56,887 nt of DNA. Origin: a virus. This document shows, in pieces, positions 24,270 to 35,765 of the stretch. Both the position numbers and the translations under genes were made by a program. The notes under the pieces are model-generated. The model saw only the letters and a program-made list of their open reading frames with translations. It was not told where the DNA came from and searched no databases. Numbering within the stretch: the first letter of the stretch is position 1; each line of letters starts with the position of its first letter. The DNA lies in the IMG/VR virus record IMGVR_UViG_3300033153_012363, positions 1 through 56,887 of that record. One strand, given 5' to 3'.

Positions 24270-24459
24270 GTATCTTATAAAAAAGTATAACAATACAGAC
24301 TTTATGTTTATGCAATATTGTCCCAATGGGAGAGCAAGGTTTACTACTAGTAAAAGAAGAGCAAAAAAATATGACTGTGAAGAAGCTATAAAAGAAACTC
24401 AAAAACTAAATGAATTAGAATATAATGTATTTTTGGAGAAAATAGATGTTAAAACTTAA
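24256..24459 (+). CDS. hypothetical basic protein, 67 aa
   Basis: Overlaps the exonuclease stop by 14 bases and the next gene by 14. Basic, with a helical KRRAKKYDCEEAIKETQKL stretch preceded by aromatic residues (DFMFMQYCPNGRARF). No family recognised. Confidence 0.55.
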   Translation: MKSNKYLIKKYNNTDFMFMQYCPNGRARFTTSKRRAKKYDCEEAIKETQKLNELEYNVFLEKIDVKT

Positions 24460-25054
24460 TATAGGATGTGGAATTCGACAGCGAAAAGGATTTACAAATG
24501 TAGATAAATATGTTACTAAAGTACTTATTAGACAACTTATAAAAAAAGGTAATTTACTTGCTTTAATAGAAAAAGGAAGTAAATATGTTCAAGCTGATTG
24601 GAGGGATTTACCTTTTGAAGATAATTCTGTTGATTACATTGAATCTATTGATACTATTGAACATTTTGGTTTTCGAGAAGTTAATACAGTGATAAAAGAA
24701 ACAAAACGAGTAATGAAGCCAGGAAGTATGGCGAGAATCCAAACTATAGATTTTAATGCTTTGGTTGAGCGTTGGTATAAAGAAATCACTAAACCAAAGA
24801 TTCCTCAATTAGAAGCTTATATGGATTTAATGGAGTCTATTTATGGTAACCAGAATAATGAAGGACAGTTTCATAAAATGCCTTGGACACCTGCTTATGC
24901 GCATCAATTATTTATAAAAGAGTACGAATTCTCAAGTATTAATATATTGATATTTCCAAGATTTTGTGGTAATGCACCACCGATGGAAACAGTTGATTGG
25001 GATTTTTCAAAAGTTTTTAGAAATCAAGCAATGATTATGGAGATAACAAAATGA
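24446..25054 (+). CDS. class I SAM-dependent methyltransferase, 202 aa
   Basis: Begins LKLNIGCGIRQRKGFTNVD, the GxGxG-type AdoMet loop with the acidic residue that binds the ribose. DLPFEDNSVDYIESIDTIEHF (residues 54-74) is the motif II/III region and RVMKPGSMARIQTIDF the strand after. This is the generic FkbM/Methyltransf_11-like fold; no NPPY or DPPY motif is present, so it is not a DNA N-methyltransferase of the usual sort. The substrate is unknown. The gene overlaps both neighbours, so it belongs to the nucleotide-metabolism cluster. Confidence 0.75.
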   Translation: MLKLNIGCGIRQRKGFTNVDKYVTKVLIRQLIKKGNLLALIEKGSKYVQADWRDLPFEDNSVDYIESIDTIEHFGFREVNTVIKETKRVMKPGSMARIQTIDFNALVERWYKEITKPKIPQLEAYMDLMESIYGNQNNEGQFHKMPWTPAYAHQLFIKEYEFSSINILIFPRFCGNAPPMETVDWDFSKVFRNQAMIMEITK

Positions 25055-25683
25055 ACATTAAAGATTTTCCAAGTTACTATACAGAAGAACATCTTCCCAA
25101 TATGTGGAATTATATTTTTCAGCGTCAAGAAGAATTAGCAAAGAAATATAATGTTATTGAAGGTAAACAGGGTCTTCGTTGGGTTATTGAATCACCTGTT
25201 GATTTAGACGATGCTAAAGGACAACTTCAATTAAAAGATTATGCTTGGCGAATTGTTGAAGAGGTTGGAGAATCCCTCGAGTCTTACTTTGTTACCTTAG
25301 ATGAAGTAGTTCATGCTCAAGAAGAGTTAGCAGACGGATTACATTTTATAGTAGAATTAGCATTAGCAATTGGATTAAAGGCTTCTGATATTAAAGAGGT
25401 TTTTAAGTTAGAAGATTTTAATGAAGGACTTAAGCATGAACTATTTAAAATGTATACTGCAAATTTTATTATGCATCTTGGCTCGACTATAAATTGTTTA
25501 AAGTTAAAGCCTTGGAAACAAACTCATGAAAAAACAGATAAAGAAGTCTTTATCAAAAAATTTAAAATAACATTTAAACATTATATAGCTCTTATGTTGT
25601 GTATAATGGAACCTATTGATATTTTAAATCTTTATTTTAGTAAATCAGATGTCAATAAATTTAGGATTAGGAGTAATTACTAG
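25051..25683 (+). CDS. dimeric dUTPase (all-alpha NTP pyrophosphohydrolase), 210 aa
   Basis: Hydrolyses dUTP to dUMP, keeping uracil out of DNA and feeding dUMP to later steps. IVEEVGESLES (near 70-80) and EELADGLHFIVE (near 93-104) form the ExxE...ExxD metal site of the all-alpha NTP-PPase superfamily. LKLKPWKQT (near 152-160) and NKFRIRSNY at the C-terminus match the dimeric dUTPase_2 family. The length is typical. The ATG overlaps the methyltransferase stop. Confidence 0.8.
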   Translation: MNIKDFPSYYTEEHLPNMWNYIFQRQEELAKKYNVIEGKQGLRWVIESPVDLDDAKGQLQLKDYAWRIVEEVGESLESYFVTLDEVVHAQEELADGLHFIVELALAIGLKASDIKEVFKLEDFNEGLKHELFKMYTANFIMHLGSTINCLKLKPWKQTHEKTDKEVFIKKFKITFKHYIALMLCIMEPIDILNLYFSKSDVNKFRIRSNY

Positions 25684-25688
25684 TAATT

Positions 25689-26060
25689 ATGGCACTCTTT
25701 TTTAATTCTAATAAAAAGATTCTTAGACAAATTTTTAATCCTCCAATTATAGTAGAAAAAGATGAGATTATACGTATTGAATATGAAGGGGATAAAATTA
25801 TTTCAACAAAAGTAATAAAGGAGAAAGAAATGGCAACTTGTCAATTAGTTATATCAGTAAATGCTCAACACCTACAAAACAAAGAGATTAAGACAAACGG
25901 CACAAAGCTTTTTATTTGTAATGATGAGTATGTTCAAGCTAATGATTTTTTAACCCAAACAGAGCAATTGTTAACTGATATTTTAGCTTATTATTCGGAG
26001 CACAGTGAGTGGCCTACTGTTCAAATGCTTCCACATGAGAGTGTCAATGATAAAGAGTAA
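25689..26060 (+). CDS. hypothetical protein, 123 aa (possible second start at 25830)
   Basis: The frame is open from ATG 25689, six bases after the dUTPase stop, but the best SD in it (AAGGAGAAAGAA) lies before an internal ATG at 25830 that would give 76 residues (MATCQLVISVNAQHL). Both starts may be used, giving a long and a short form. No family recognised; the C-terminal half is helical. Confidence 0.55.
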   Translation: MALFFNSNKKILRQIFNPPIIVEKDEIIRIEYEGDKIISTKVIKEKEMATCQLVISVNAQHLQNKEIKTNGTKLFICNDEYVQANDFLTQTEQLLTDILAYYSEHSEWPTVQMLPHESVNDKE

Positions 26061-26961
26061 TTATTTTCATACCATTTATCAAAAAACTTTAATGATGATG
26101 GAAGAAGAATCAATTCTTTTTGCTAAAATGAAAATGGTTGATCATTATACATTTACATTACTTGACCCAACACAATCTTTAGTAAATCTTAGAAAGAATT
26201 GGGCTTGGGCACTTCATGAAGGGATTAATAGATTATCATTTGATGATGGGGATATGCAAAATCCTGGAACAGCTTATTCGTACCGTCCAAATTGGAAAAG
26301 AAAACTTGAAAAGGAAGGGGAAAAATTTTGTTATTCGTATGGTCAAGAATATCAAAAACAGGTTTATCAAGTAATTCAAAAACTTAGAAGCAAGTCTGAA
26401 AGAGAGGCCATTATAGTTATGTGGCATGATTACTATACATTAAAAAGTATACATCAAATGATGCCCAGAAGACCTTGTACTTTAACACTTCATTTCTATT
26501 TCTTTGATGGGAAATTAAATTGTGCTTGTAATATGAGAACAGTTGATGTAATGAACATGTTACCTTATGATGTTTTCCATCATACTTTATTACAACGATA
26601 CATAGCTTCAGTTTTAAAAGTGGATATTGGAGTATTTCACTTTACTGCATCATTTGCTTATTACCAAAAGAAACGGGATATCTCAGGTTCAGTAAAAAAT
26701 ACAATAGCAAAATTAAAAGAAAACTCTGTTCCTGACGCAGAAGAGGATTGGTTATTTACTGAAGATGATCGAAAAAAACTTATAAAGTTAACCAAACTAA
26801 TTGATGATGAACATTCGAATCTTGAGAATAGATTTACTATAGACGGTTTATCTTTATATGGAGAACAATATGCAAAAGCATTGTTATATTTGTATAAATT
26901 AAAAATGTTAAAACTAAAACGCCCAGTTAAATTAAAAGAATTCGAGGTAATTTATAAATGA
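26047..26961 (+). CDS. second thymidylate synthase-fold enzyme, cytosine-type, 304 aa
   Basis: I start at ATG 26047, inside the previous gene's end; GTG 26005 and ATG 26035 are alternatives. Thymidylate synthase landmarks: YSYGQEYQKQ (97-106), catalytic Cys in RPCT (C144), MRTVD (R164, D167) and LPYD with Asp175, eleven residues after R164, where ThyA has Asn177. As in T4 gp42, Asp there favours dCMP. SRR is changed to SER (117-119). It differs clearly from the copy at 10740 and has about 60 extra C-terminal residues. Likely product: hydroxymethyl-dCMP, or another C5-substituted nucleotide if the cofactor step differs. It leads the modification cluster. Confidence 0.75.
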   Translation: MIKSNYFHTIYQKTLMMMEEESILFAKMKMVDHYTFTLLDPTQSLVNLRKNWAWALHEGINRLSFDDGDMQNPGTAYSYRPNWKRKLEKEGEKFCYSYGQEYQKQVYQVIQKLRSKSEREAIIVMWHDYYTLKSIHQMMPRRPCTLTLHFYFFDGKLNCACNMRTVDVMNMLPYDVFHHTLLQRYIASVLKVDIGVFHFTASFAYYQKKRDISGSVKNTIAKLKENSVPDAEEDWLFTEDDRKKLIKLTKLIDDEHSNLENRFTIDGLSLYGEQYAKALLYLYKLKMLKLKRPVKLKEFEVIYK

Positions 26962-27230
26962 TACCAAAAGAATTTTTAGGAGCAAACAGTACTCTTAAAA
27001 AACCTAAAAATTGGAAAGATGATCAATGTTCTGATCTTCCCGTTTTCCAAGTTAATGATCCAACTCTTAAAACTCTAATCCGTACTTCTTGTTGGGAAGT
27101 TACTCCTGAAGAGATGCAAGAGATTCAAAGAACTGGAGAAGTATGGTTAACAGTTGTTGGAGCTTCTCATCCTCCAGTATTATTACAAGGAATTAGTCCA
27201 TTTAAAATAGAAGGTGTAATTGCGTCATGA
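26958..27230 (+). CDS. conserved phage hypothetical protein, 90 aa
   Basis: The pattern MIPKEFLGAN...CSDLP...SCWEVTPEEMQEIQRTGEVWL...GASHPPVLLQGISPF is one I recall from conserved small proteins in many tailed phages of proteobacteria, always of unknown function. It overlaps both neighbours by four bases, so it is translated with the thymidylate synthase-like enzyme and the kinase. Confidence 0.65.
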   Translation: MIPKEFLGANSTLKKPKNWKDDQCSDLPVFQVNDPTLKTLIRTSCWEVTPEEMQEIQRTGEVWLTVVGASHPPVLLQGISPFKIEGVIAS

Positions 27231-27718
27231 TTTATATATATGAAGGAGTCGATCTAGCTGGTAAATCTACACTAGCTGAACGGCAAAGTAAAATTTCAAA
27301 TATTCCTATTATTAAAAAGAAACTTGAAGTATTTAAACACCATAAAAAGGGCTGGTTAGAAGGTCCAGAAGTAGAATTGATTACTCAAATGTTCTTTGAG
27401 TCTATATTTCCGCTTGGTGTTAAATATGACTTTATAATGGATAGAAGTTTATTATCATCTTTAGTTTATAGTAAATTCTTTCATCGAGAAGTTAAATTAG
27501 ATTATATTTATGAATACCTTAAAGGAGAAAAAAGCAATTCTATTCATATTAATTACGTTCATTGTTCTGATAAAGTATTACAAGAACGATATCTTGATAG
27601 AAAAGAAATCCTTTTTAGATTTGAAGAACTTGTTACTATTCAAAATATATATCATCAAGTAGTTAAGACTTTAATTGACAGTGGAGTAGAGAATATAAAG
27701 GTAATAGCAAATGAATAA
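27227..27718 (+). CDS. thymidylate kinase-like dNMP kinase, 163 aa
   Basis: P-loop YEGVDLAGKST lies at residues 4-14, and DFIMDRSLLSSLVYSKFF (near 68-85) is the DRS/DRY motif that positions the nucleotide in thymidylate kinases. The LID arginines are partly seen in RYLDRKEILFRFEE. It is shorter than host Tmk (about 210). In this cluster it could phosphorylate the modified dCMP made by the adjacent enzyme, as T4 gp1 does for hydroxymethyl-dCMP. The kinase family is seen; the substrate is inference. Confidence 0.7.
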   Translation: MIYIYEGVDLAGKSTLAERQSKISNIPIIKKKLEVFKHHKKGWLEGPEVELITQMFFESIFPLGVKYDFIMDRSLLSSLVYSKFFHREVKLDYIYEYLKGEKSNSIHINYVHCSDKVLQERYLDRKEILFRFEELVTIQNIYHQVVKTLIDSGVENIKVIANE

Positions 27719-28703
27719 TAAATTAACAGTTGCTGGGATTATTTCTGGAGTAGGAAATCTTTTAGGGTTTCAACAAGCAGGATTTAAGCCTTTATTTCTA
27801 AATGACAATAGAAACTTTATAAAAAAAGGAATTGATACTGTTATACGAAATATGCCTGGTTGCAAATATTCTCAAGATCTATTTGCATTTCAAGAAATGA
27901 ATCCAACTGTTCTTATGTCTTCTCCATCTTGTGCTCAAGTTAGTTTATTAGGAATGAAACGTGAAGATAGAAAAAGTTTAAAAGAATTAAAACTAGAAGA
28001 TTTTGAGTTTGCTCAAACATTAGAAATTATATTACAAAGAAAACCTGAGTTTTTCATTATTGAGTATTTAAAATCTATTTTAGATCATTTCAAAGTTACA
28101 TATAAAGGTTTATATAGAGAAATAACTGATCAGTTTTTAGAGTTTCCTAAAGAATACAGAGTCCAAATATTAGAACTTAATGCAATGAGTTATGGTGTTC
28201 CCCAAAATAGAAGACGTTTATTTATCTTTTTCTCAAAAAAACAATATGATTTTGTTTATGTCCCTCCTCAAAAATTAACTTTAGAACTTAAAAAAGTTGG
28301 AGAAGTGATTGAGATGCTAAATCATGAAAGAGACAGAACTGTTTTACCTAATGACGAAATGCCAAGACATAATCCGACAAGGGTTGCTAGGTTTGATGAA
28401 TTAGAACCAGGTGAGTCTTATTATGGGGGACAAAATAATAGGCGTCTTAAAATGGAACAATATTGTCCTGTTATCACAAGTCACTGTACTAGACATGTTC
28501 ATCCAATAGAACCAAGAGTTTTAAACATTAGAGAATCAGCGACTTTTCAAGGGTTTCCATTAGATTTTCAATTTTATGGTGGAGACGCAACTAAACTTGA
28601 CCAAATTGGTAAAACAGTTCCCCCTCCTGTAACTAAACATTTTGCTGAAGAAATAAAAGAAAGCATAGAAAGATATGAATCAAGAAATTCAAAAGATAAT
28701 TAG
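27711..28703 (+). CDS. divergent C5-cytosine DNA methyltransferase homologue A, 330 aa
   Basis: Motifs in order: I, GIISGVGNLLGFQQAGF; IV, MSSPSCAQVS with the catalytic Cys in the PC position (PSC); VI, FIIEYL, keeping Glu but not the usual ENV; VIII, GVPQNRRRLFIF (QxRxR); IX-X, RESATFQGFP and IGKTVPPPV. The target-recognition region is short. All residues for attack on cytosine C6 are kept, so it should form the covalent intermediate, but the AdoMet-side motif I is unusual (SGVG for FxGxG). It may methylate DNA or transfer another group. It forms a pair with the gene at 30660. Confidence 0.75.
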   Translation: MNNKLTVAGIISGVGNLLGFQQAGFKPLFLNDNRNFIKKGIDTVIRNMPGCKYSQDLFAFQEMNPTVLMSSPSCAQVSLLGMKREDRKSLKELKLEDFEFAQTLEIILQRKPEFFIIEYLKSILDHFKVTYKGLYREITDQFLEFPKEYRVQILELNAMSYGVPQNRRRLFIFFSKKQYDFVYVPPQKLTLELKKVGEVIEMLNHERDRTVLPNDEMPRHNPTRVARFDELEPGESYYGGQNNRRLKMEQYCPVITSHCTRHVHPIEPRVLNIRESATFQGFPLDFQFYGGDATKLDQIGKTVPPPVTKHFAEEIKESIERYESRNSKDN

Positions 28704-28974
28704 AGATTTACCCGATTTTCATGACCCAGGAGGGCCGGCTAGGAGAACGTTTCCAAATAATTATTTTCAATTAGGACATAAGTATACTAAAGCATTTTCT
28801 TTAGAGCTTGGTATCAGATATAATATTTGGGATCTGCTTGATAAAGAACCTGAAGGTTTAGGGTTAAGTCCTAAAGATTTATTTATTTTACTATTACCAG
28901 ACGTTATTCCTATTTATCAATGGGACAATGAACATAAACATTGGAATAAAATAGTAGAGGATATTCATGTTTAA
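28675..28974 (+). CDS. hypothetical protein, 99 aa
   Basis: Overlaps the methyltransferase end by 29 bases and the next gene by 8. DFHDPGGPARRTFPNN near the N-terminus and a Trp/His-rich C-terminus (YQWDNEHKHWNK) are the notable features. No family recognised. It is part of the putative cytosine-modification cluster by position only. Confidence 0.55.
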   Translation: MNQEIQKIIRDLPDFHDPGGPARRTFPNNYFQLGHKYTKAFSLELGIRYNIWDLLDKEPEGLGLSPKDLFILLLPDVIPIYQWDNEHKHWNKIVEDIHV

Positions 28975-29278
28975 TCAAATAATGATAAGTAAAAGTGGAG
29001 CTGAGATTAGAAAATTAGCATCAAGAAAAAAGGCCCTTCTTCAGACATTAAGAGGGAAATTAGAAGAAGGAATCGATGATATTCAAACTAATGCTGCACT
29101 TGACCAATCCCAAAAAGAATCGATGATTAAGATAAATAGAGAAAAAATCGATTCTATTGATGGGTCAGTTATCCTTTGTGAAGTAATTGTTGAACATATT
29201 TTAGATGACAGTTCTTTTGAATTAAGTGTTTTAGAAATAAACTTCTTTATGAATCATACGGAGATAAAATATAAATGA
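28967..29278 (+). CDS. hypothetical protein, 103 aa
   Basis: Helical N-terminal 70 residues, basic and then acidic, likely a hairpin of two helices. The C-terminus has a short beta-rich end. It overlaps the SpeD-like gene by four bases (ATGA). No family recognised. Confidence 0.55.
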   Translation: MFNQIMISKSGAEIRKLASRKKALLQTLRGKLEEGIDDIQTNAALDQSQKESMIKINREKIDSIDGSVILCEVIVEHILDDSSFELSVLEINFFMNHTEIKYK

Positions 29279-29646
29279 CCTATTATGGGAAAGAATTAAT
29301 TTTAGATTTACATCATTGTAACCCACATCTTTTTAATCGAAAACAAATTAAAAATTTCTTTCAAGAAGTTTGTGTGGCCACAGATATGACTCCTGAGGAT
29401 ATACATTTTTGGGATGATTTTGATACGCCAGAAGAAGAAAAGCAAACTGATCCTAAAACTAAAGGAACATCAGCTATCCAGTTTATTTTACAAAGCAATA
29501 TTACAATTCATACATTTGACATATTATCAACAGTCCACATTAATTTCTTTAGCTGTAAAGAATTTATTCACGAAAAAGTTGAAACAATAGCCATTAAAAG
29601 TTTTGAAGGTAAAATAGTTAATTCAATATTACTAACGAGGATATAG
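29275..29646 (+). CDS. AdoMet decarboxylase (SpeD)-like protein with altered cleavage site, 123 aa
   Basis: The prokaryotic SpeD pattern is plain: GKELILDLHHCNPHLFN at the start, an acidic middle, QSNITIHTFDILSTVHINFFSC near 88-109 (SpeD: ESHISIHTWPExxxAxVDxFTC). The size fits SpeD (about 120-130). The Ser that becomes the pyruvoyl group in HISIHTWPE is Thr here and the His before it is Asn, so ordinary self-cleavage is doubtful. The Cys of FTCG is kept. It could bind AdoMet without decarboxylating it, or work through a Thr-derived group. It lies between two C5-MTase homologues. Confidence 0.6.
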   Translation: MTYYGKELILDLHHCNPHLFNRKQIKNFFQEVCVATDMTPEDIHFWDDFDTPEEEKQTDPKTKGTSAIQFILQSNITIHTFDILSTVHINFFSCKEFIHEKVETIAIKSFEGKIVNSILLTRI

Positions 29647-29647
29647 T

Positions 29648-30667
29648 ATGAATGTAGTAATGATCATACCAACTGGAATCGGTTGTGAAGTAGGTGGTCA
29701 TGCAGGAGATGCTTCTCCTTCCGCAAAACTAATAGCCGCAGGTTGTGATAATTTGATTATTCATCCAAATGTGGTTAATGCTTCTGATATTAATGAGATG
29801 ACAGATAATATGTGGTATGTTGAGGGATCTATTTTAAATCGATTCTTACAAGGCCAAATTGCTTTAGAAGAAGTATATAGTAATAGGATTTTACTTGCAG
29901 TGAATGCACCTTTATTAAATCAAACTATAAACTCAGTAAATGCTGCAAAAAATACATTAGGAGTAGATGTTGAGGTTATGGAACTTCGAGATTTATTAAC
30001 ACTGAAAGGGATTAAAAAAGCAGATGGAAGAGCCACAGGCATTATGTCTGGTGAAGAAGAAGCAGTTTTGCAAATTTTAGAAGAAAACAGAATAAGTACT
30101 TTTGATGTTCTTGCTATTCAAACTATGATAACAGTTTCAGAACAAGTTGCAGAAGAATATTTAACAGGAGAAGGGGGAGTAAATCCTTGGGGAGGAGCAG
30201 AAGCAATCTGTAGTCAGTACTTTGCAAGAGAGTTTGGTATGCAATGTGCACATGCTCCAATTGAATCAGGAGTATTAGCAAAATTTAATGAGATTGTAGA
30301 TCCTCGAATGGCTGCAGAAATAGTTTCAGTAAGTTATTTACATTGTATCTTAAAAGGCTTACATAGAGCTCCAAAAATTCTTTCGTATAATTCTATGTCT
30401 CAGAATACGCTTAGAGTAGATGATATTGATTTAATGATTAGTCCAGATGGTTGTTGGGATATACCTCATGATGCTTGTATGGATCAGGATATTCCAATCA
30501 TTTTTGTTCGAGAGAATACAAGTATATATGAACCACACAAGAAAGCTCCTAGAACATGTTTTATTGTTGATAATTATGTAGAAGCTGCAGGTATGATTGC
30601 TGCACGGAAAGCAGGAGTTACTCAACAATCAGTAAGAAGACCTATAAAGGAAAAAACTCATGATTAA
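29648..30667 (+). CDS. DUF3326 family protein, 339 aa
   Basis: The N-terminus MIIPTGIGCEVGGHAGDASP, followed by HPNVVNAS and YVEGSILNRF, is the hallmark of DUF3326, an uncharacterised family known mainly from cyanobacteria and other bacteria. GEGGVNPWGGAEAICS, CAHAPI and the C-terminal HRAPKIL also fit. The length matches the family. There is no established biochemical function. I know of no reason for a phage to carry it other than its neighbours: it sits between the SpeD-like gene and the second C5-MTase homologue, overlapping the latter by eight bases. It may make or load a cofactor or group for cytosine modification; this is inference. Confidence 0.75.
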   Translation: MNVVMIIPTGIGCEVGGHAGDASPSAKLIAAGCDNLIIHPNVVNASDINEMTDNMWYVEGSILNRFLQGQIALEEVYSNRILLAVNAPLLNQTINSVNAAKNTLGVDVEVMELRDLLTLKGIKKADGRATGIMSGEEEAVLQILEENRISTFDVLAIQTMITVSEQVAEEYLTGEGGVNPWGGAEAICSQYFAREFGMQCAHAPIESGVLAKFNEIVDPRMAAEIVSVSYLHCILKGLHRAPKILSYNSMSQNTLRVDDIDLMISPDGCWDIPHDACMDQDIPIIFVRENTSIYEPHKKAPRTCFIVDNYVEAAGMIAARKAGVTQQSVRRPIKEKTHD

Positions 30668-31631
30668 GATTGGTGGTTTATTTTGTGGTGCTGGTTTTCC
30701 TCTTCTTGCCGCTCAGTGGGCTGATCTTCATTTAGAGTGGGGAATTGAACCTCGACCTTATTTTAATATTAAAACATTTCGATATAACTTTAAAGGAGTT
30801 TTATACTCAAAAGAATTAAATGCTTTTTATTCTAATCCCGTTGACGTGATTTGGATGAGTCCCTCTTGTGGTGAATTTTCTTCAGCTACCCGAAGTGGAA
30901 AGAATGTAATCAGTATGCGAAATAAACTGTTTGAAGACTTTGAATATGTTAGAGCAGTTATGCAGGTTAAGAAAAGAAGACCAAAAATCTTTGTGTTAGA
31001 AAATTTACCAAGCGTTAAAAACTTTGTTCAATTTGAATCTACTCCAGCTGGGTTTGAGTTAAAGCATCAACTTACACATGAATCTATAGAACTTTATGAT
31101 TTTTATATTGAAGAGCATACGATCACTCCAACAGAAGTAGATATTGCTCAAGTACGTGAACGCCTATTTACAATAGGTTCATTATATCCACATCAATTTA
31201 TGTTAGACCCACCATTGGAGGATAAAAGAAATGAACTCTCAACTAGAGCTGTTTTCGAAGATCTCGACGACAGAAGAGAAAAAGGAGAAATTCTGTACAA
31301 TGATAACAAGCCCAATCACTCTGACGAAAAAATTGAAAAAATGTCCAGGGTTCGGCCAGGCGAAGGGCTCTACGGGGGAATTAATAATAAACGACTGGAC
31401 CCAGAAAAACCTTGTCCCGTCATTATGTCTTCCCAAACGAAGTATATCCATCCCTGGGAAGACAGGTTATATACCGCAAGAGAAGCTGCCTCTCTCATGG
31501 GGGTGCCTAGATCCTTTAGGTTTTTTGGAAGAGAAAACGCATGTTTCGACCAAATAGGGAAAGGGATTGTGCCTCAAGTTGGGGAATTTATTTTAAAGCA
31601 AATTAAAACCTATTTGGAACAACAGAACTAA
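30660..31631 (+). CDS. divergent C5-cytosine DNA methyltransferase homologue B, 323 aa
   Basis: Motif I is GGLFCGAGFPLLAAQW, motif IV MSPSCGEFSSA (catalytic Cys in PSC), motif VI FVLENLPS (ENL for ENV), motif VIII DIAQVRERLF (QxRxR), motifs IX-X REAASLMGVP and IGKGIVPQVG. All catalytic residues are kept. The segment from about 31230 to 31560, covering the target-recognition region through motif IX, has a much richer C/G codon usage than the rest of the gene and contains an overlapping open frame with a good SD. It closes the cluster that starts at 26047. Confidence 0.8.
   Translation: MIKIGGLFCGAGFPLLAAQWADLHLEWGIEPRPYFNIKTFRYNFKGVLYSKELNAFYSNPVDVIWMSPSCGEFSSATRSGKNVISMRNKLFEDFEYVRAVMQVKKRRPKIFVLENLPSVKNFVQFESTPAGFELKHQLTHESIELYDFYIEEHTITPTEVDIAQVRERLFTIGSLYPHQFMLDPPLEDKRNELSTRAVFEDLDDRREKGEILYNDNKPNHSDEKIEKMSRVRPGEGLYGGINNKRLDPEKPCPVIMSSQTKYIHPWEDRLYTAREAASLMGVPRSFRFFGRENACFDQIGKGIVPQVGEFILKQIKTYLEQQN
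31231..31557 (+). CDS. possible overlapping gene inside methyltransferase B, 108 aa
   Basis: An out-of-frame reading from ATG 31231 (MNSQLELFSKIST) has GGAGG ten bases ahead and remains open for 108 codons inside the methyltransferase gene. Its sequence is basic with no recognised domain. The unusual base composition of this stretch could reflect coding in two frames or a recombined patch. I would not accept it as a gene without further evidence. Confidence 0.25.
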   Translation: MNSQLELFSKISTTEEKKEKFCTMITSPITLTKKLKKCPGFGQAKGSTGELIINDWTQKNLVPSLCLPKRSISIPGKTGYIPQEKLPLSWGCLDPLGFLEEKTHVSTK

Positions 31632-31675: not shown

Positions 31676-33073
31676 ATGAATACCTATAACATACTAAAAC
31701 AAGTTGATATTGTTGAAATTCTCTCTAATTACATTAAAATTAATGATACCTCAGATCCAGAAGACAATCGTGCATTATGCCCATTTCATGCAGATAAGAA
31801 TCCAAGTCTTTCAATAAACACCATTAAACAGGTTTATTATTGCTTTGGGTGTAAAGCTGGAGGTAATGCTTTAACATTTGTAAAAGATATAGAAAATATT
31901 TCTAGTGATGAGGCTCTTCAGATTGTAGCCAATATTGCTGGTATAAAAACTGATATTGGAGATCTTGAGATATTAACTAAAGTATCAGAGTATTATGGGG
32001 GAAGACTAGAAGAAGTATCAAACTATATACAAGAAAGAAACCTTCAATTTGGGGTTGCTAGTTATTTAGAATTAGGATACTCCGGAGATGATGCTTTTGA
32101 ATTAGAACACCAATTTCCAACCAATAAAGATAAATTAATTAAGTTTGGATTATTACAACAAAAATATAAAGATACTCCACAGGAATTGAGTTTTTCTACT
32201 TTTACAAATAGATTAATGTTTCCTATTAGAAATCATTTAGGAGTTGTAGGATTTGCAGGAAGAACTTTGGTTAATCACGATATTAAGTATATAAATTGTA
32301 TTGATAACCAATACTTCAAACGTCGTACGACTCTCTATGGTCTCCATAAAGCAAAGGATAATATTCAATTATTGAATTTTGCAATTTTAGTTGAAGGGTT
32401 ATTGGATGTTGGTAGGATGTGGGAATATAAACATTTTAACACAATAGCAAGTCTCGGAACAGGTATAACAGAAGAACAAATATCTCTATTAAAAAGATAT
32501 ACAAATAAAGTTAAATTACTTTACGATGGAGATGAGGCTGGGTATAAAGCAAGTATTAAAGCAACTTTACTTTTTATTGTTTATGGTTTTGAAGTTAAAA
32601 CTTTCTTTTTCCAAAAAGATGAGGATCCAGATTCATATTTACTTAAACATAAATCTTTTGAAAATGTATCAATGATTCCAGGTGAAGAGGTTTTAAAAGC
32701 CCATATTAGTAAAGAGGATTTTATTAAAGCAACCCAAAAAAATCCTGACTTAGTTGATGATAAATACTTTAGACTATATAATTTGGAAAAAAGAAATGTA
32801 GTTAGTGAACCTATTAAGACATTAAAACCTAATAGAAAAATAGAATCTACACCAACATTTCATCTTACTTTATTAATTGATGCATTTCCAGAATTAGAAA
32901 AGCATCTTTCAAAATCGCATTTAGATGCAATCAGTAAAGCTCATGAAAATCCAAATATATCAAAACTAATCTTTCATAAAAATCCTTATCAATATGTTAC
33001 ACAACCTGAGGAAGTTTTAATTCAAATTCTTGAACAATGGAAAGAACCAAATGAAAAAGTTACCAAGACCTGA
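31676..33073 (+). CDS. DnaG-type DNA primase, 465 aa
   Basis: Makes RNA primers for lagging-strand synthesis. The CHC2 zinc finger is at the N-terminus: CPFH (C35, H38) and YYCFGC (C56, C59). The RNA polymerase core with FAGRT at about 193-197 follows, then the TOPRIM fold with LVEGLLD (E240) and LYDGDEAG (D284, D286). The C-terminal 120 residues are helical and probably bind the helicase. It is shorter than host DnaG (about 580-650), as usual in phages. It leads a transcript with dCMP deaminase and DNA polymerase. Confidence 0.9.
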   Translation: MNTYNILKQVDIVEILSNYIKINDTSDPEDNRALCPFHADKNPSLSINTIKQVYYCFGCKAGGNALTFVKDIENISSDEALQIVANIAGIKTDIGDLEILTKVSEYYGGRLEEVSNYIQERNLQFGVASYLELGYSGDDAFELEHQFPTNKDKLIKFGLLQQKYKDTPQELSFSTFTNRLMFPIRNHLGVVGFAGRTLVNHDIKYINCIDNQYFKRRTTLYGLHKAKDNIQLLNFAILVEGLLDVGRMWEYKHFNTIASLGTGITEEQISLLKRYTNKVKLLYDGDEAGYKASIKATLLFIVYGFEVKTFFFQKDEDPDSYLLKHKSFENVSMIPGEEVLKAHISKEDFIKATQKNPDLVDDKYFRLYNLEKRNVVSEPIKTLKPNRKIESTPTFHLTLLIDAFPELEKHLSKSHLDAISKAHENPNISKLIFHKNPYQYVTQPEEVLIQILEQWKEPNEKVTKT

Positions 33074-33515
33074 ATATTATATGAAATTAGCAGAGTTAAC
33101 TGCTTTGAGAGGTACATGCAATAGACTACATGTAGGTTGTGTTTTAGTAGATAGTAAAACAAAAAGAATAGCTGCAGTAGGTTATAATTCTTCTCACTCA
33201 AGAACGGCTCATTGTGATGTACACGGTTGTTTATTGTATGAAGGGCACTGTATTAGAACTCTTCATGCCGAACAAGCAGCAATTATTAATCTTGAACGCA
33301 AATATGATTCTTTAGATGCTTATATAACGCATGAACCTTGTGCAAATTGTTATAAGTTATTAACAGCAGCAAATGTAAAAATGATTAAATGTCTTCATGA
33401 GTATCCAAATCCTGCAAGGAAACTTCTTGTTAAAGTAATAAAAGTTCCTGTTACTTTAATGAAATTCGCAGATGTTAGAATGAAAAAATTAACTATAAAA
33501 GATTATGGAAATTAA
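33051..33515 (+). CDS. dCMP deaminase, 154 aa
   Basis: Converts dCMP to dUMP and thereby controls the dC/dT supply. I use ATG 33051 (MKKLPRPEYYMKLAEL), which has GGAAAG ahead; an in-frame ATG at 33030 is possible. Zinc ligands: TLHAEQAAI (His and the proton-shuttling Glu) and EPCANC (two Cys). An extra Cys/His cluster (HCDVHGC...GHC) between them is typical of phage dCMP deaminases such as T4 gpcd. It competes with the two dCMP-modifying enzymes for the same substrate. Confidence 0.85.
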   Translation: MKKLPRPEYYMKLAELTALRGTCNRLHVGCVLVDSKTKRIAAVGYNSSHSRTAHCDVHGCLLYEGHCIRTLHAEQAAIINLERKYDSLDAYITHEPCANCYKLLTAANVKMIKCLHEYPNPARKLLVKVIKVPVTLMKFADVRMKKLTIKDYGN

Positions 33516-35765
33516 ATGGAAAAAAACTATAAACTAATTGAAACTTGGGATGAATTTATTCAACTAATTACCCAATGTAAAAGTTTTAAGAAACTTGCTT
33601 TTGATATTGAGACTTCAGGTTTACGATATCAGACTATGAAAAAAATTATAGTTAAAAAAAGACAAGGAGAAAAAGTTATTGAAGAAACTTGGGATAAAGA
33701 TACTATAATTGGAATTTCTTTCTCAAGTGCAATAGGTACTGGTCAATATCTTCCACTTTACATCAAATTGAAACATTTTGATAATAGAAGAGAAAATTAT
33801 TTAAAAGAATTAAATCAAGTTGAGAATCCATTGAACCTTTTAGATGACACAACCCTAGACGATTTTAGGTTTTGGTTTGGGTCTGGGAGGGAAAAAGAAG
33901 CTTATAATTTATTAAAAGATTTATTAGAAGATTCCTCAATTAAAAAAATTGCTCAAAATGGTAAATTTGATTGTCAGTTTTTAAAAGTTTGGTGGAACAT
34001 TGATGTTCAAAACTTTTGGTGGGATACTATGTTAGCATCGCATACTTCTAATGAAAATACTTTTAATTCTTTAGACTTCTTATCAACTAGATATGAAGAT
34101 TTATTTAATTATAAAAAGAGTGTTCATGATAGGCTTTCAAATGATCAAATTGAGGAAGAATCTTATGCTGATATCCCTCTTGATATTCTTGCTTTATATG
34201 GGGCTCAAGATGCTGATATCACATTTAGATTACAAGGTGACCAATTAAAAGACATGGAAGATGAAAGAGTTAAATTTCACATTAAAAATAATTATCCTGA
34301 TTGCTGGGTTGAAAGTTTATCTCTTTTTCAAAATTTTTACATGCCATTATCTCATGCTTATCAAGAAACAGAAATAGCCGGAGTTTTATTTGATAAAGTT
34401 TTTGCTGATAAAACTGTTACACATTATACTAAGGTTATGGCAGAAATGCAAAATACAATTGATGATATTCTAAAAGTTTCAGGAATTGAAAAACTAGAAA
34501 CAGGAAAAAATGATAGGTGGATTAATTTAAATAGCCCAAAACAGAAGAAACAACTATTTTTTGAGATTTTAGGTTGGAAACCAATTAAAGAGACACAAAA
34601 AATAAAATATGCTAGAAAATATAAAAAATGGGAAACTATCAAACCAGAAGATGCAAGTACAGACCAAGATAGTTTAAAGCAGATTTTAGAATCATTTTAT
34701 GAACAAGACTCAAAAAAGATAAAAGATAGATCATTAGAAATTAAAATAATCGAATGTACTTTAGAATACTTAAAAAAGAATAAAATGATTAATACCTATT
34801 TAGTAGGTAAGAAAATTTTAAATAGAATGGATGCAAACGGATTTATTCATTTTAGTATGAAACTACATGGAACTGTTTCTGGAAGGCTTAGTTCTAGTCC
34901 TAATGTTCAGAATCTCCCTAAAAGAACTTTTGAAATCATAAGCCCAACTGGAAAAGTTATTGAGCCTTCTAATATTAGAGGAATTTTTACATCTCCACCT
35001 GGATATAAAGTATTTAGTGTAGATCTTTCTCAAGCAGAATTAAGAATTATGGCTGATTATGCTCAAGATTATGTAATGTTTGATTACATTAAAAATAAAA
35101 TTGATACTCATTGGCGAGGATGTCAAAAAATATTTTACAATGATGATACTAGTTTAGTATATAATTCAAAAGATCCAGTAATGAAACGCTTTAGAAAATT
35201 AACAAAACTTTGTAACTTTGGTGGATTATACGGAGGAAGCGACAAAAAGAAAGTTCAATCAGTAAATGAAAAACTTGAACTAGGTGAACAAAAAATAAAC
35301 ATTGAGATTGCAAGCAAACATACTGATTGGTTTAATGGTGAATTTTTTAGGATTCATGAATACATTCATGAAATGAATCATCATATTAAAAGATACGGAT
35401 GGATTGATAATAAATTTGGAAGAAGACGAAGGTTACCAGATTCACAATCGAATCGTAAATGGGTTGTTGCTGAAGCACAAAGGCAAGGTATAAATGCCCA
35501 AATTCAGGGTACTGCTAGTGATATTGCACAATGCGGTTTTATAAGAATACAAGAGTATTTTAAAAATAATAATTTCAAATCACGATTAATATTTACTGTC
35601 CATGATGAGTGCGTTGGGTATATTCATGAAAGTGAGATCGAAGAACTTACTCCTATTATACCAGAAATAATGGTAATTAAGGATACGAAATGGTTACCTC
35701 TAGATAAAATTAAAGTTCCTCTTGAGTCTGAAATTGAGATATTTAATAATCGTTGGGGTGATTAA
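33516..35765 (+). CDS. family A DNA polymerase with 3'-5' exonuclease, 749 aa
   Basis: Replicates the phage genome. The proofreading domain starts at LAFDIETSG (about 27-35) with exo II near IAQNGKFDCQFL and a late YGAQDAD. Polymerase motif A is FSVDLSQAELRIMA (metal Asp near 502), motif B RKLTKLCNFGGLYGG (near 561-575), motif C FTVHDECVGY (near 693-702). The Phe of NFG predicts normal discrimination against dideoxynucleotides. There is no 5' nuclease domain; the separate exonuclease at 23391 supplies it. Confidence 0.9.
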   Translation: MEKNYKLIETWDEFIQLITQCKSFKKLAFDIETSGLRYQTMKKIIVKKRQGEKVIEETWDKDTIIGISFSSAIGTGQYLPLYIKLKHFDNRRENYLKELNQVENPLNLLDDTTLDDFRFWFGSGREKEAYNLLKDLLEDSSIKKIAQNGKFDCQFLKVWWNIDVQNFWWDTMLASHTSNENTFNSLDFLSTRYEDLFNYKKSVHDRLSNDQIEEESYADIPLDILALYGAQDADITFRLQGDQLKDMEDERVKFHIKNNYPDCWVESLSLFQNFYMPLSHAYQETEIAGVLFDKVFADKTVTHYTKVMAEMQNTIDDILKVSGIEKLETGKNDRWINLNSPKQKKQLFFEILGWKPIKETQKIKYARKYKKWETIKPEDASTDQDSLKQILESFYEQDSKKIKDRSLEIKIIECTLEYLKKNKMINTYLVGKKILNRMDANGFIHFSMKLHGTVSGRLSSSPNVQNLPKRTFEIISPTGKVIEPSNIRGIFTSPPGYKVFSVDLSQAELRIMADYAQDYVMFDYIKNKIDTHWRGCQKIFYNDDTSLVYNSKDPVMKRFRKLTKLCNFGGLYGGSDKKKVQSVNEKLELGEQKINIEIASKHTDWFNGEFFRIHEYIHEMNHHIKRYGWIDNKFGRRRRLPDSQSNRKWVVAEAQRQGINAQIQGTASDIAQCGFIRIQEYFKNNNFKSRLIFTVHDECVGYIHESEIEELTPIIPEIMVIKDTKWLPLDKIKVPLESEIEIFNNRWGD

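Follow-up and report, generated by a model that had tools for sequence, protein, structure and literature searches.

A deep viral clade of C5-methyltransferase homologues tied to a dCMP-type synthase points to a cytosine hypermodification pathway

The IMG/VR virus record IMGVR_UViG_3300033153_012363 (56,887 bases, GC 31%; the whole record is called the window below) carries at 26047-31631 an operon whose assignment to the class of cytosine hypermodification pathways is well supported. The operon comprises two modules rather than a single pathway. The first, or core, module consists of a thymidylate synthase (TS) homologue of the type acting on deoxycytidine monophosphate (dCMP), a kinase, two homologues of the C5-methyltransferases (MTase1 and MTase2) and small proteins, with an enzyme resembling deoxycytidine triphosphate (dCTP) pyrophosphatases, a primase, a dCMP deaminase and the family A DNA polymerase PolA as neighbours. 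The second, a SpeD-like decarboxylase with a DUF3326 protein, is probably a separate small-molecule pathway, formed by a decarboxylase and its partner enzyme and placed in a variable cargo slot. An earlier note on this DNA had united all these genes in one new cytosine pathway, an interpretation which is partly supported by the present analysis.

The two methyltransferase homologues, METHYLTRANSFERASES, are not ordinary. Motif IV, PPC in classical C5-methyltransferases, reads SPSC in both, and their motif X has GK for the usual GN; MTase1 furthermore has EY instead of EN in motif VI. The catalytic cysteine, the motif VI glutamate, QxRxR and the motif I GxG are present in both; the 'full catalytic residues' attributed to them earlier therefore hold for cysteine, glutamate and QxRxR, and fail in motifs IV and X and, for MTase1, in motif VI.

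These deviations define a group of viral enzymes. An alignment scan of viral contigs for the methyltransferase gave 78 loci in which the motifs were then read; a single-protein scan with MTase1 had returned no match. The canonical proline before the catalytic cysteine and the motif X GN, neither of which occurs in the window enzymes, are both found in the sampled viral enzymes of the N-type, named after their motif X asparagine (46/46 and 47/47; wherever asparagine stands in motif X, proline precedes the cysteine, in 46/46). In contrast, the 31 enzymes with lysine or arginine in motif X (K/R enzymes) invariably have serine, aspartate, glutamate or lysine before the cysteine, and never proline. 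The arginine variant is confined to MTase1 of locus L003 and two further proteins. A maximum-likelihood tree unites the K/R enzymes and the enzyme of locus L008 in a single group with 100/99 support, within which clade A (the window, L001, L003, L005, L006, L009 and L165-L171) is distant from clade B (L179-L226, mostly HPEC...GK; the two further arginine proteins belong here). Relative to the N-type, both clades replaced the motif X asparagine by lysine or arginine and lost the proline before the cysteine (to aspartate, serine or glutamate). A motif II arginine occurs in all 33 clade A and B enzymes having the site, where N-type enzymes mostly carry aspartate. The motif I phenylalanine is mostly gone, and the catalytic cysteine, the motif VI acid (glutamate or aspartate) and QxRxR are retained.

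The clade is also tied to a particular partner. On the fetched DNA, a TS homologue accompanies 24 of 29 K/R loci and none of 46 N-type loci (Fisher p=4.6e-15, a value to be read with the caution that the linkage is inherited within one clade and the loci are not independent). Several of the five K/R loci lacking a synthase end at a contig edge. Within the clade, the linkage is kept over very deep divergence. As the earlier note had proposed, the window synthase is of the cytosine type: aligned with E. coli TS, it keeps Cys146, has threonine for His147 and carries aspartate in place of Asn177, and the cysteine and the aspartate are the test residues for a dCMP-type enzyme. Positions 147 and 177 were reported to separate best the synthases of modified-cytosine phages from ordinary ones (MetaGPA, PMC8670742). 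The cysteine and the aspartate recur in all 28 TS homologues with a readable site that neighbour K/R methyltransferases. We predict from these residues that the window synthase is a dCMP hydroxymethylase.

Further observations concern the same two families. At L008:5872-7818, an intein containing a LAGLIDADG domain splits a TS homologue that adjoins the clade methyltransferase. A protein of about 254 amino acids without Pfam match occurs in seven clade-A loci (among them L166:3693-4457, L009:6181-6945, L006:3820-4584 and L008:230-1009) and by eye resembles a very divergent thymidylate-synthase fold. Two human-gut phage proteins (L242:4682-5677 and L245:5126-6193) show SPSC with an odd motif X that cannot be confidently aligned; they may form one more branch of the family. 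The methyltransferases of ICP1, Thermus phiLo, Bacillus phage G (gp301) and Heliusvirales were set aside, as they have no K/R signature. Phage G also encodes a TS homologue with Asp177 and a CMP/dCMP deaminase, with a divergent C5-methyltransferase homologue outside the K/R clade elsewhere in its genome (L244:2608-3654, gp319; L240:2447-3727, gp301); this cultured phage could be checked for modified cytosine. Lastly, close 3′ of MTase2, L003 (9274-13262) encodes a pair of large glycosyltransferase proteins, one of them a fusion with a methyltransferase domain dependent on S-adenosylmethionine (SAM); they might add a sugar to a modified base.

The altered pocket residues are ones that we take, from knowledge of M.HhaI together with CmoX, to line the methyl-donor site. 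In CmoX, Arg350 stands in for Asn304 of HhaI and contacts the carboxy-SAM carboxylate, and the engineered M.MpeI N374K, changed at the same position, accepts this cofactor (PMC12783734). Since the motif X lysine of the window enzymes occupies the position of CmoX Arg350, their cofactor pocket is probably rebuilt and an anion-bearing group is likely.

We give about even chances to the reading that module 1 is a cytosine-replacement pathway, in which the clade converts hydroxymethylcytosine or a similar C5 precursor into a carboxylate-bearing base. Its individual reactions, as well as what the final base is, are inferred as follows. The synthase would turn dCMP into 5-hydroxymethyl-dCMP or a comparable derivative carrying one carbon at C5, which the kinase and host enzymes would raise to the triphosphate. 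Meanwhile, the pyrophosphatase and the dCMP deaminase would drain the dCTP pool, and PolA would place the modified nucleotide into DNA. Once in DNA, the modified base would be the substrate of MTase1 and MTase2, working through covalent Cys-C6 adduct chemistry. Given the lysine at the donor-methyl site and the invariant motif II arginine of the rebuilt pocket, the group which they attach would most likely bear a carboxylate or another anion and not be a methyl. In the sister clade, an asparagine-synthetase-like ligase could amidate the carboxylate. Ordinary C5-methyltransferases couple thiols to 5-hydroxymethylcytosine (5hmC) in vitro (PMC7176277), which provides a chemical precedent for this fold acting on 5hmC. 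A bolder form, possible though doubtful in our estimate, would make the K/R clade a large unrecognised family that, by the covalent C5-methyltransferase chemistry, exchanges the hydroxyl of 5hmC for a carboxylate-bearing group, drawing on a non-SAM co-substrate, and thereby produces undescribed hypermodifications.

The closest described system is CmoA-CmoX-CmoY of Synechococcus phage S-B43, which makes 5-carboxymethylcytosine (PMC12783734). It shares with the K/R loci a basic residue for the motif X asparagine in a phage C5-methyltransferase homologue, and an asparagine-synthetase-like ligase: ten clade-B loci encode an asparagine-synthetase plus glutaminase protein of the same family as CmoY, which in S-B43 amidates the carboxylate on cytosine (PMC12783734). 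Both likenesses, including the lysine at the Arg350/N374K position, would also fit MTase1 and MTase2 being CmoX-like enzymes that use host carboxy-SAM to form 5-carboxymethylcytosine on unmodified cytosine, the synthase being a separate source of modified nucleotide. We judge this unlikely. CmoA was found neither in the window nor in any K/R record searched, although the S-B43 positive control was detected. CmoX itself, read from S-B43 and forming a long branch, groups with the N-type enzymes outside the K/R clade, and its basic motif X residue probably arose separately. It is defined by SPPC with Arg350, whereas the window enzymes have SPSC with lysine; SPDC and HPEC also occur among the K/R enzymes, which have the extra motif II arginine. 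Moreover, the constant partner is the D177 synthase, nearly always present. Taken together, the K/R loci show signs of a carboxylate-bearing product (the basic motif X residue and the CmoY-family ligases of clade B), no CmoA, and a dCMP-type synthase as constant partner.

A simpler account is that the synthase alone makes 5hmC or 5-methylcytosine, the two homologues having drifted motifs and being either plain 5-methylcytosine methylases or accessory proteins. The catalytic cysteine, glutamate and QxRxR are indeed retained, and SPSC and GK are one change each. However, the changes are co-conserved over the whole clade and tied to the synthase, and both paralogues are retained in L001 and L003; drift is in our view rather improbable.

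Several points, besides the shared ancestry of the loci, weigh against the replacement pathway that we favour. On a base whose C5 already carries a substituent, a C5-transferase would have to use unusual chemistry. The hydroxymethylase assignment rests on two residues, and a dCMP methylase is possible. L008 lies inside the clade yet has PPC and GS, the one exception, and L256 has two TS homologues with no clade methyltransferase in 14.6 kb. Many contigs are fragmentary, and no amide ligase was found among the window proteins scanned.

Two other known pathways share the supply side of the core. Like that of T4, which makes hydroxymethylcytosine, it includes an Asp177 synthase, a kinase, a dCTPase-like enzyme and a dCMP deaminase near replication genes; unlike T4, it has enzymes of the C5-methyltransferase fold where T4 has its decorating enzyme, and no T4 glucosyltransferase was identified among the window proteins scanned. 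The carbamoyltransferase pathway for cytosine carbamoylation uncovered by MetaGPA (PMC8670742) similarly combines an Asp177 synthase, a nucleotide pyrophosphatase and a dCMP deaminase on modified phage contigs. Here too the methyltransferase-fold enzymes set the window apart, and no carbamoyltransferase was found among the same proteins. The earlier suggestion of a dedicated cytosine pathway distinct from the known ones that it named is backed by a K/R clade tied to a dCMP-type synthase. This family is apparently undescribed in the open-access literature which we searched, preprints and subscription journals being outside that scope.

The second module separates from the first in both directions. 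The window DUF3326 protein matches PF11805 with 255.9 bits (curated cut-off 25). A single-protein viral scan gave no DUF3326 relatives, and a first genome scan was likewise empty; alignment queries then found them. The search patterns were chosen with an alignment including one hand-written consensus-like row, which served that purpose alone and entered no later alignment or model, and a tblastn comparison with the window protein confirmed each match. No phage or plasmid record matches DUF3326, and no phage record matches the window SpeD-like protein (E<=1e-5). Among 63 viral contigs with DUF3326, a SpeD-like gene is present in 50, upstream in 49 and within 60 bases in 43. The 50 whole viral records with DUF3326 gave one weak methyltransferase match and two TS matches; conversely, neither SpeD-like nor DUF3326 genes were found in the eight other whole records with the synthase/methyltransferase module. 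As the two sets of genes mostly occur apart, both ways, the SpeD-like and DUF3326 genes are removed from the cytosine pathway; the earlier note had itself offered regular separation as grounds for abandoning the unified view, and for this pair, conserved in its own right elsewhere, such separation is what we see. In the window the pair lies between the 103-amino-acid gene and MTase2, where L003 has a putative DNA methylase (by eye) and a 100-amino-acid gene, and L001 an 87-amino-acid open reading frame; with other genes at this site in both relatives, the position resembles a cargo slot.

In phage phiW-14, putrescine is attached to a DNA base, which lends some appeal to the unified scheme, where an amine produced by the SpeD-like and DUF3326 proteins would be joined to hydroxymethylcytosine by the methyltransferases. 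The shared operon with its overlapping genes also speaks for it, as does the ability of phage SpeD-like enzymes to make putrescine or agmatine (PMC9992855, PMC10407285). Nevertheless, we consider it very improbable, for none of the eight other module 1 records tested contains the pair, and the pair lacks module 1 in nearly all of the 50 viral records, and also in bacteria and archaea. Aminopropyl transfer from decarboxylated SAM was rejected too, because relatives have no SpeD and the SpeD-like protein lacks the residues of S-adenosylmethionine decarboxylase (AdoMetDC).

What the pair makes may be approached through its cellular relatives. In 80 cellular DUF3326 loci (L019-L098, a sample biased toward genomes matching the search patterns), the gene is preceded by a SpeD-like gene in 37, by a pyridoxal phosphate (PLP) enzyme resembling carboxynorspermidine decarboxylase (NspC) in 33, never by both, and by neither in 10. 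This mutual exclusion suggests that the two decarboxylases do the same job beside DUF3326. A glutathionylspermidine-synthetase-like ligase occurs in 17 of the 80 loci, many of these 17 also having DUF350/DUF1190-like genes (the last two by eye). The ligase recalls the PspA/DUF350/DUF1190/ATP-grasp polyamine operons (PMC11237479); unlike these, where DUF3326 is not named, the viral loci share just the SpeD-DUF3326 pair. As a guess, the module is possibly an amine pathway.

The SpeD-like group retains S74 and H79 in 88/88 and C94 in 87/88 members, all three being kept in the window; aligned with T. maritima SpeD, these are the pyruvoyl serine, the processing histidine and the catalytic cysteine of class 1b. 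Where AdoMetDC has W-P-E (T. maritima, S-B43), the group reads L-D-x and the window protein F-D-I. The lost proline is presumably the conserved one which marks true AdoMetDC (PMC10407285). The group also conserves Gln69 and, in most members but not in the window, Thr73; these might correspond to two of the four residues diagnostic of the ornithine decarboxylase SpeDC (glutamine, threonine, phenylalanine and tyrosine). The protein resembles the SpeDA/SpeDC pyruvoyl decarboxylases (PMC10407285, PMC9992855) in its class 1b family, its Ser/His/Cys and the loss of the AdoMetDC proline, and differs in having DUF3326 as partner. The AlphaFold model of DUF3326 has a predicted local distance difference test score (pLDDT) of 92.9, and a fold search found no close PDB fold (template modelling score below 0.3 for nearly all matches). 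Distance matrices of SpeD and DUF3326 correlate weakly (Mantel r 0.2, 40 of 2000 permutations as high), so that the case for the pair rests on adjacency and not on covariation of the sequences.

All the genes listed in the earlier note are present, with the families given there, on the plus strand and flanked by replication genes (Table 1): a DnaB-type helicase, a 5′-3′ exonuclease and an all-alpha nucleoside triphosphate (NTP) pyrophosphatase precede the cluster, and primase, dCMP deaminase, family A polymerase and RecA follow. Overlaps between successive cluster genes are 4, 4, 8, 29, 8 and 4 bases, then come a 1-base gap and an overlap of 8, so that the four to eight bases described earlier apply to most neighbours. 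The kinase-like protein is 63% identical to that of L001 and 41% to that of L003; for MTase2 the values are 77% and 65%. Pyrophosphatase homologues lie 5′ of the synthase in L003 and L005, with one more in the L256 record. Close 5′ of the cluster, 24446-25054 encodes a class I SAM-dependent methyltransferase of unassigned role which is not CmoA.

Table 1. Genes of the operon and its conserved neighbours in the window (deoxynucleoside monophosphate, dNMP)
Feature	Position	Strand	Evidence
All-alpha NTP pyrophosphatase (dUTPase_2/MazG-like), probable dCTP-purging enzyme	25051..25683	+	PF08761 1.6e-6; phrog_12184 3e-23
dCMP-type TS homologue, predicted dCMP hydroxymethylase	26047..26961	+	PF00303 1e-12; E. 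coli TS alignment; family alignment
90-amino-acid core protein, no assigned function	26958..27230	+	L001 homologue 39%; phrog_25433 3e-11
dNMP kinase-like (thymidylate-kinase-like), predicted modified-dCMP kinase	27227..27718	+	phrog_761 8e-8; PF02223 weak, below cut-off
MTase1, C5-methyltransferase homologue, K/R clade (SPSC, GK)	27711..28703	+	PF00145 2e-30; motifs; tree
99-amino-acid core protein, no assigned function	28675..28974	+	weak L001 homologue, same place
103-amino-acid core protein, no assigned function	28967..29278	+	56% identity L001, 34% L003, same place after MTase1
SpeD-like pyruvoyl decarboxylase, cargo module	29275..29646	+	PF02675 2.5e-13; alignments
DUF3326 enzyme, cargo module	29648..30667	+	PF11805 7e-76; 63 viral + 80 cellular loci; AlphaFold model
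MTase2, C5-methyltransferase homologue, K/R clade (SPSC, GK)	30660..31631	+	PF00145 2e-23; motifs; tree
DNA primase, conserved neighbour	31676..33073	+	50% identity L001; neighbour in nine K/R loci
dCMP deaminase, conserved neighbour	33030..33515	+	homologue in 18/21 K/R loci
Family A DNA polymerase (PolA)	33516..35765	+	PF00476 9e-61; homologue in 15/21 K/R loci

Base modifications shield phage DNA from restriction and CRISPR, and are a source of enzymes for DNA labelling and sequencing. For DUF3326, the pairing in sampled cellular loci with one of two unrelated decarboxylases, never with both, is a strong clue to function, which turns an orphan family into a testable pathway. For the methyltransferases, a residue other than proline before the catalytic cysteine, GK or GR in motif X and a D177 synthase within a few kb provide a searchable signature. 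It marks a deep viral clade whose cofactor pocket has apparently been rebuilt, a solution probably reached independently of CmoX.

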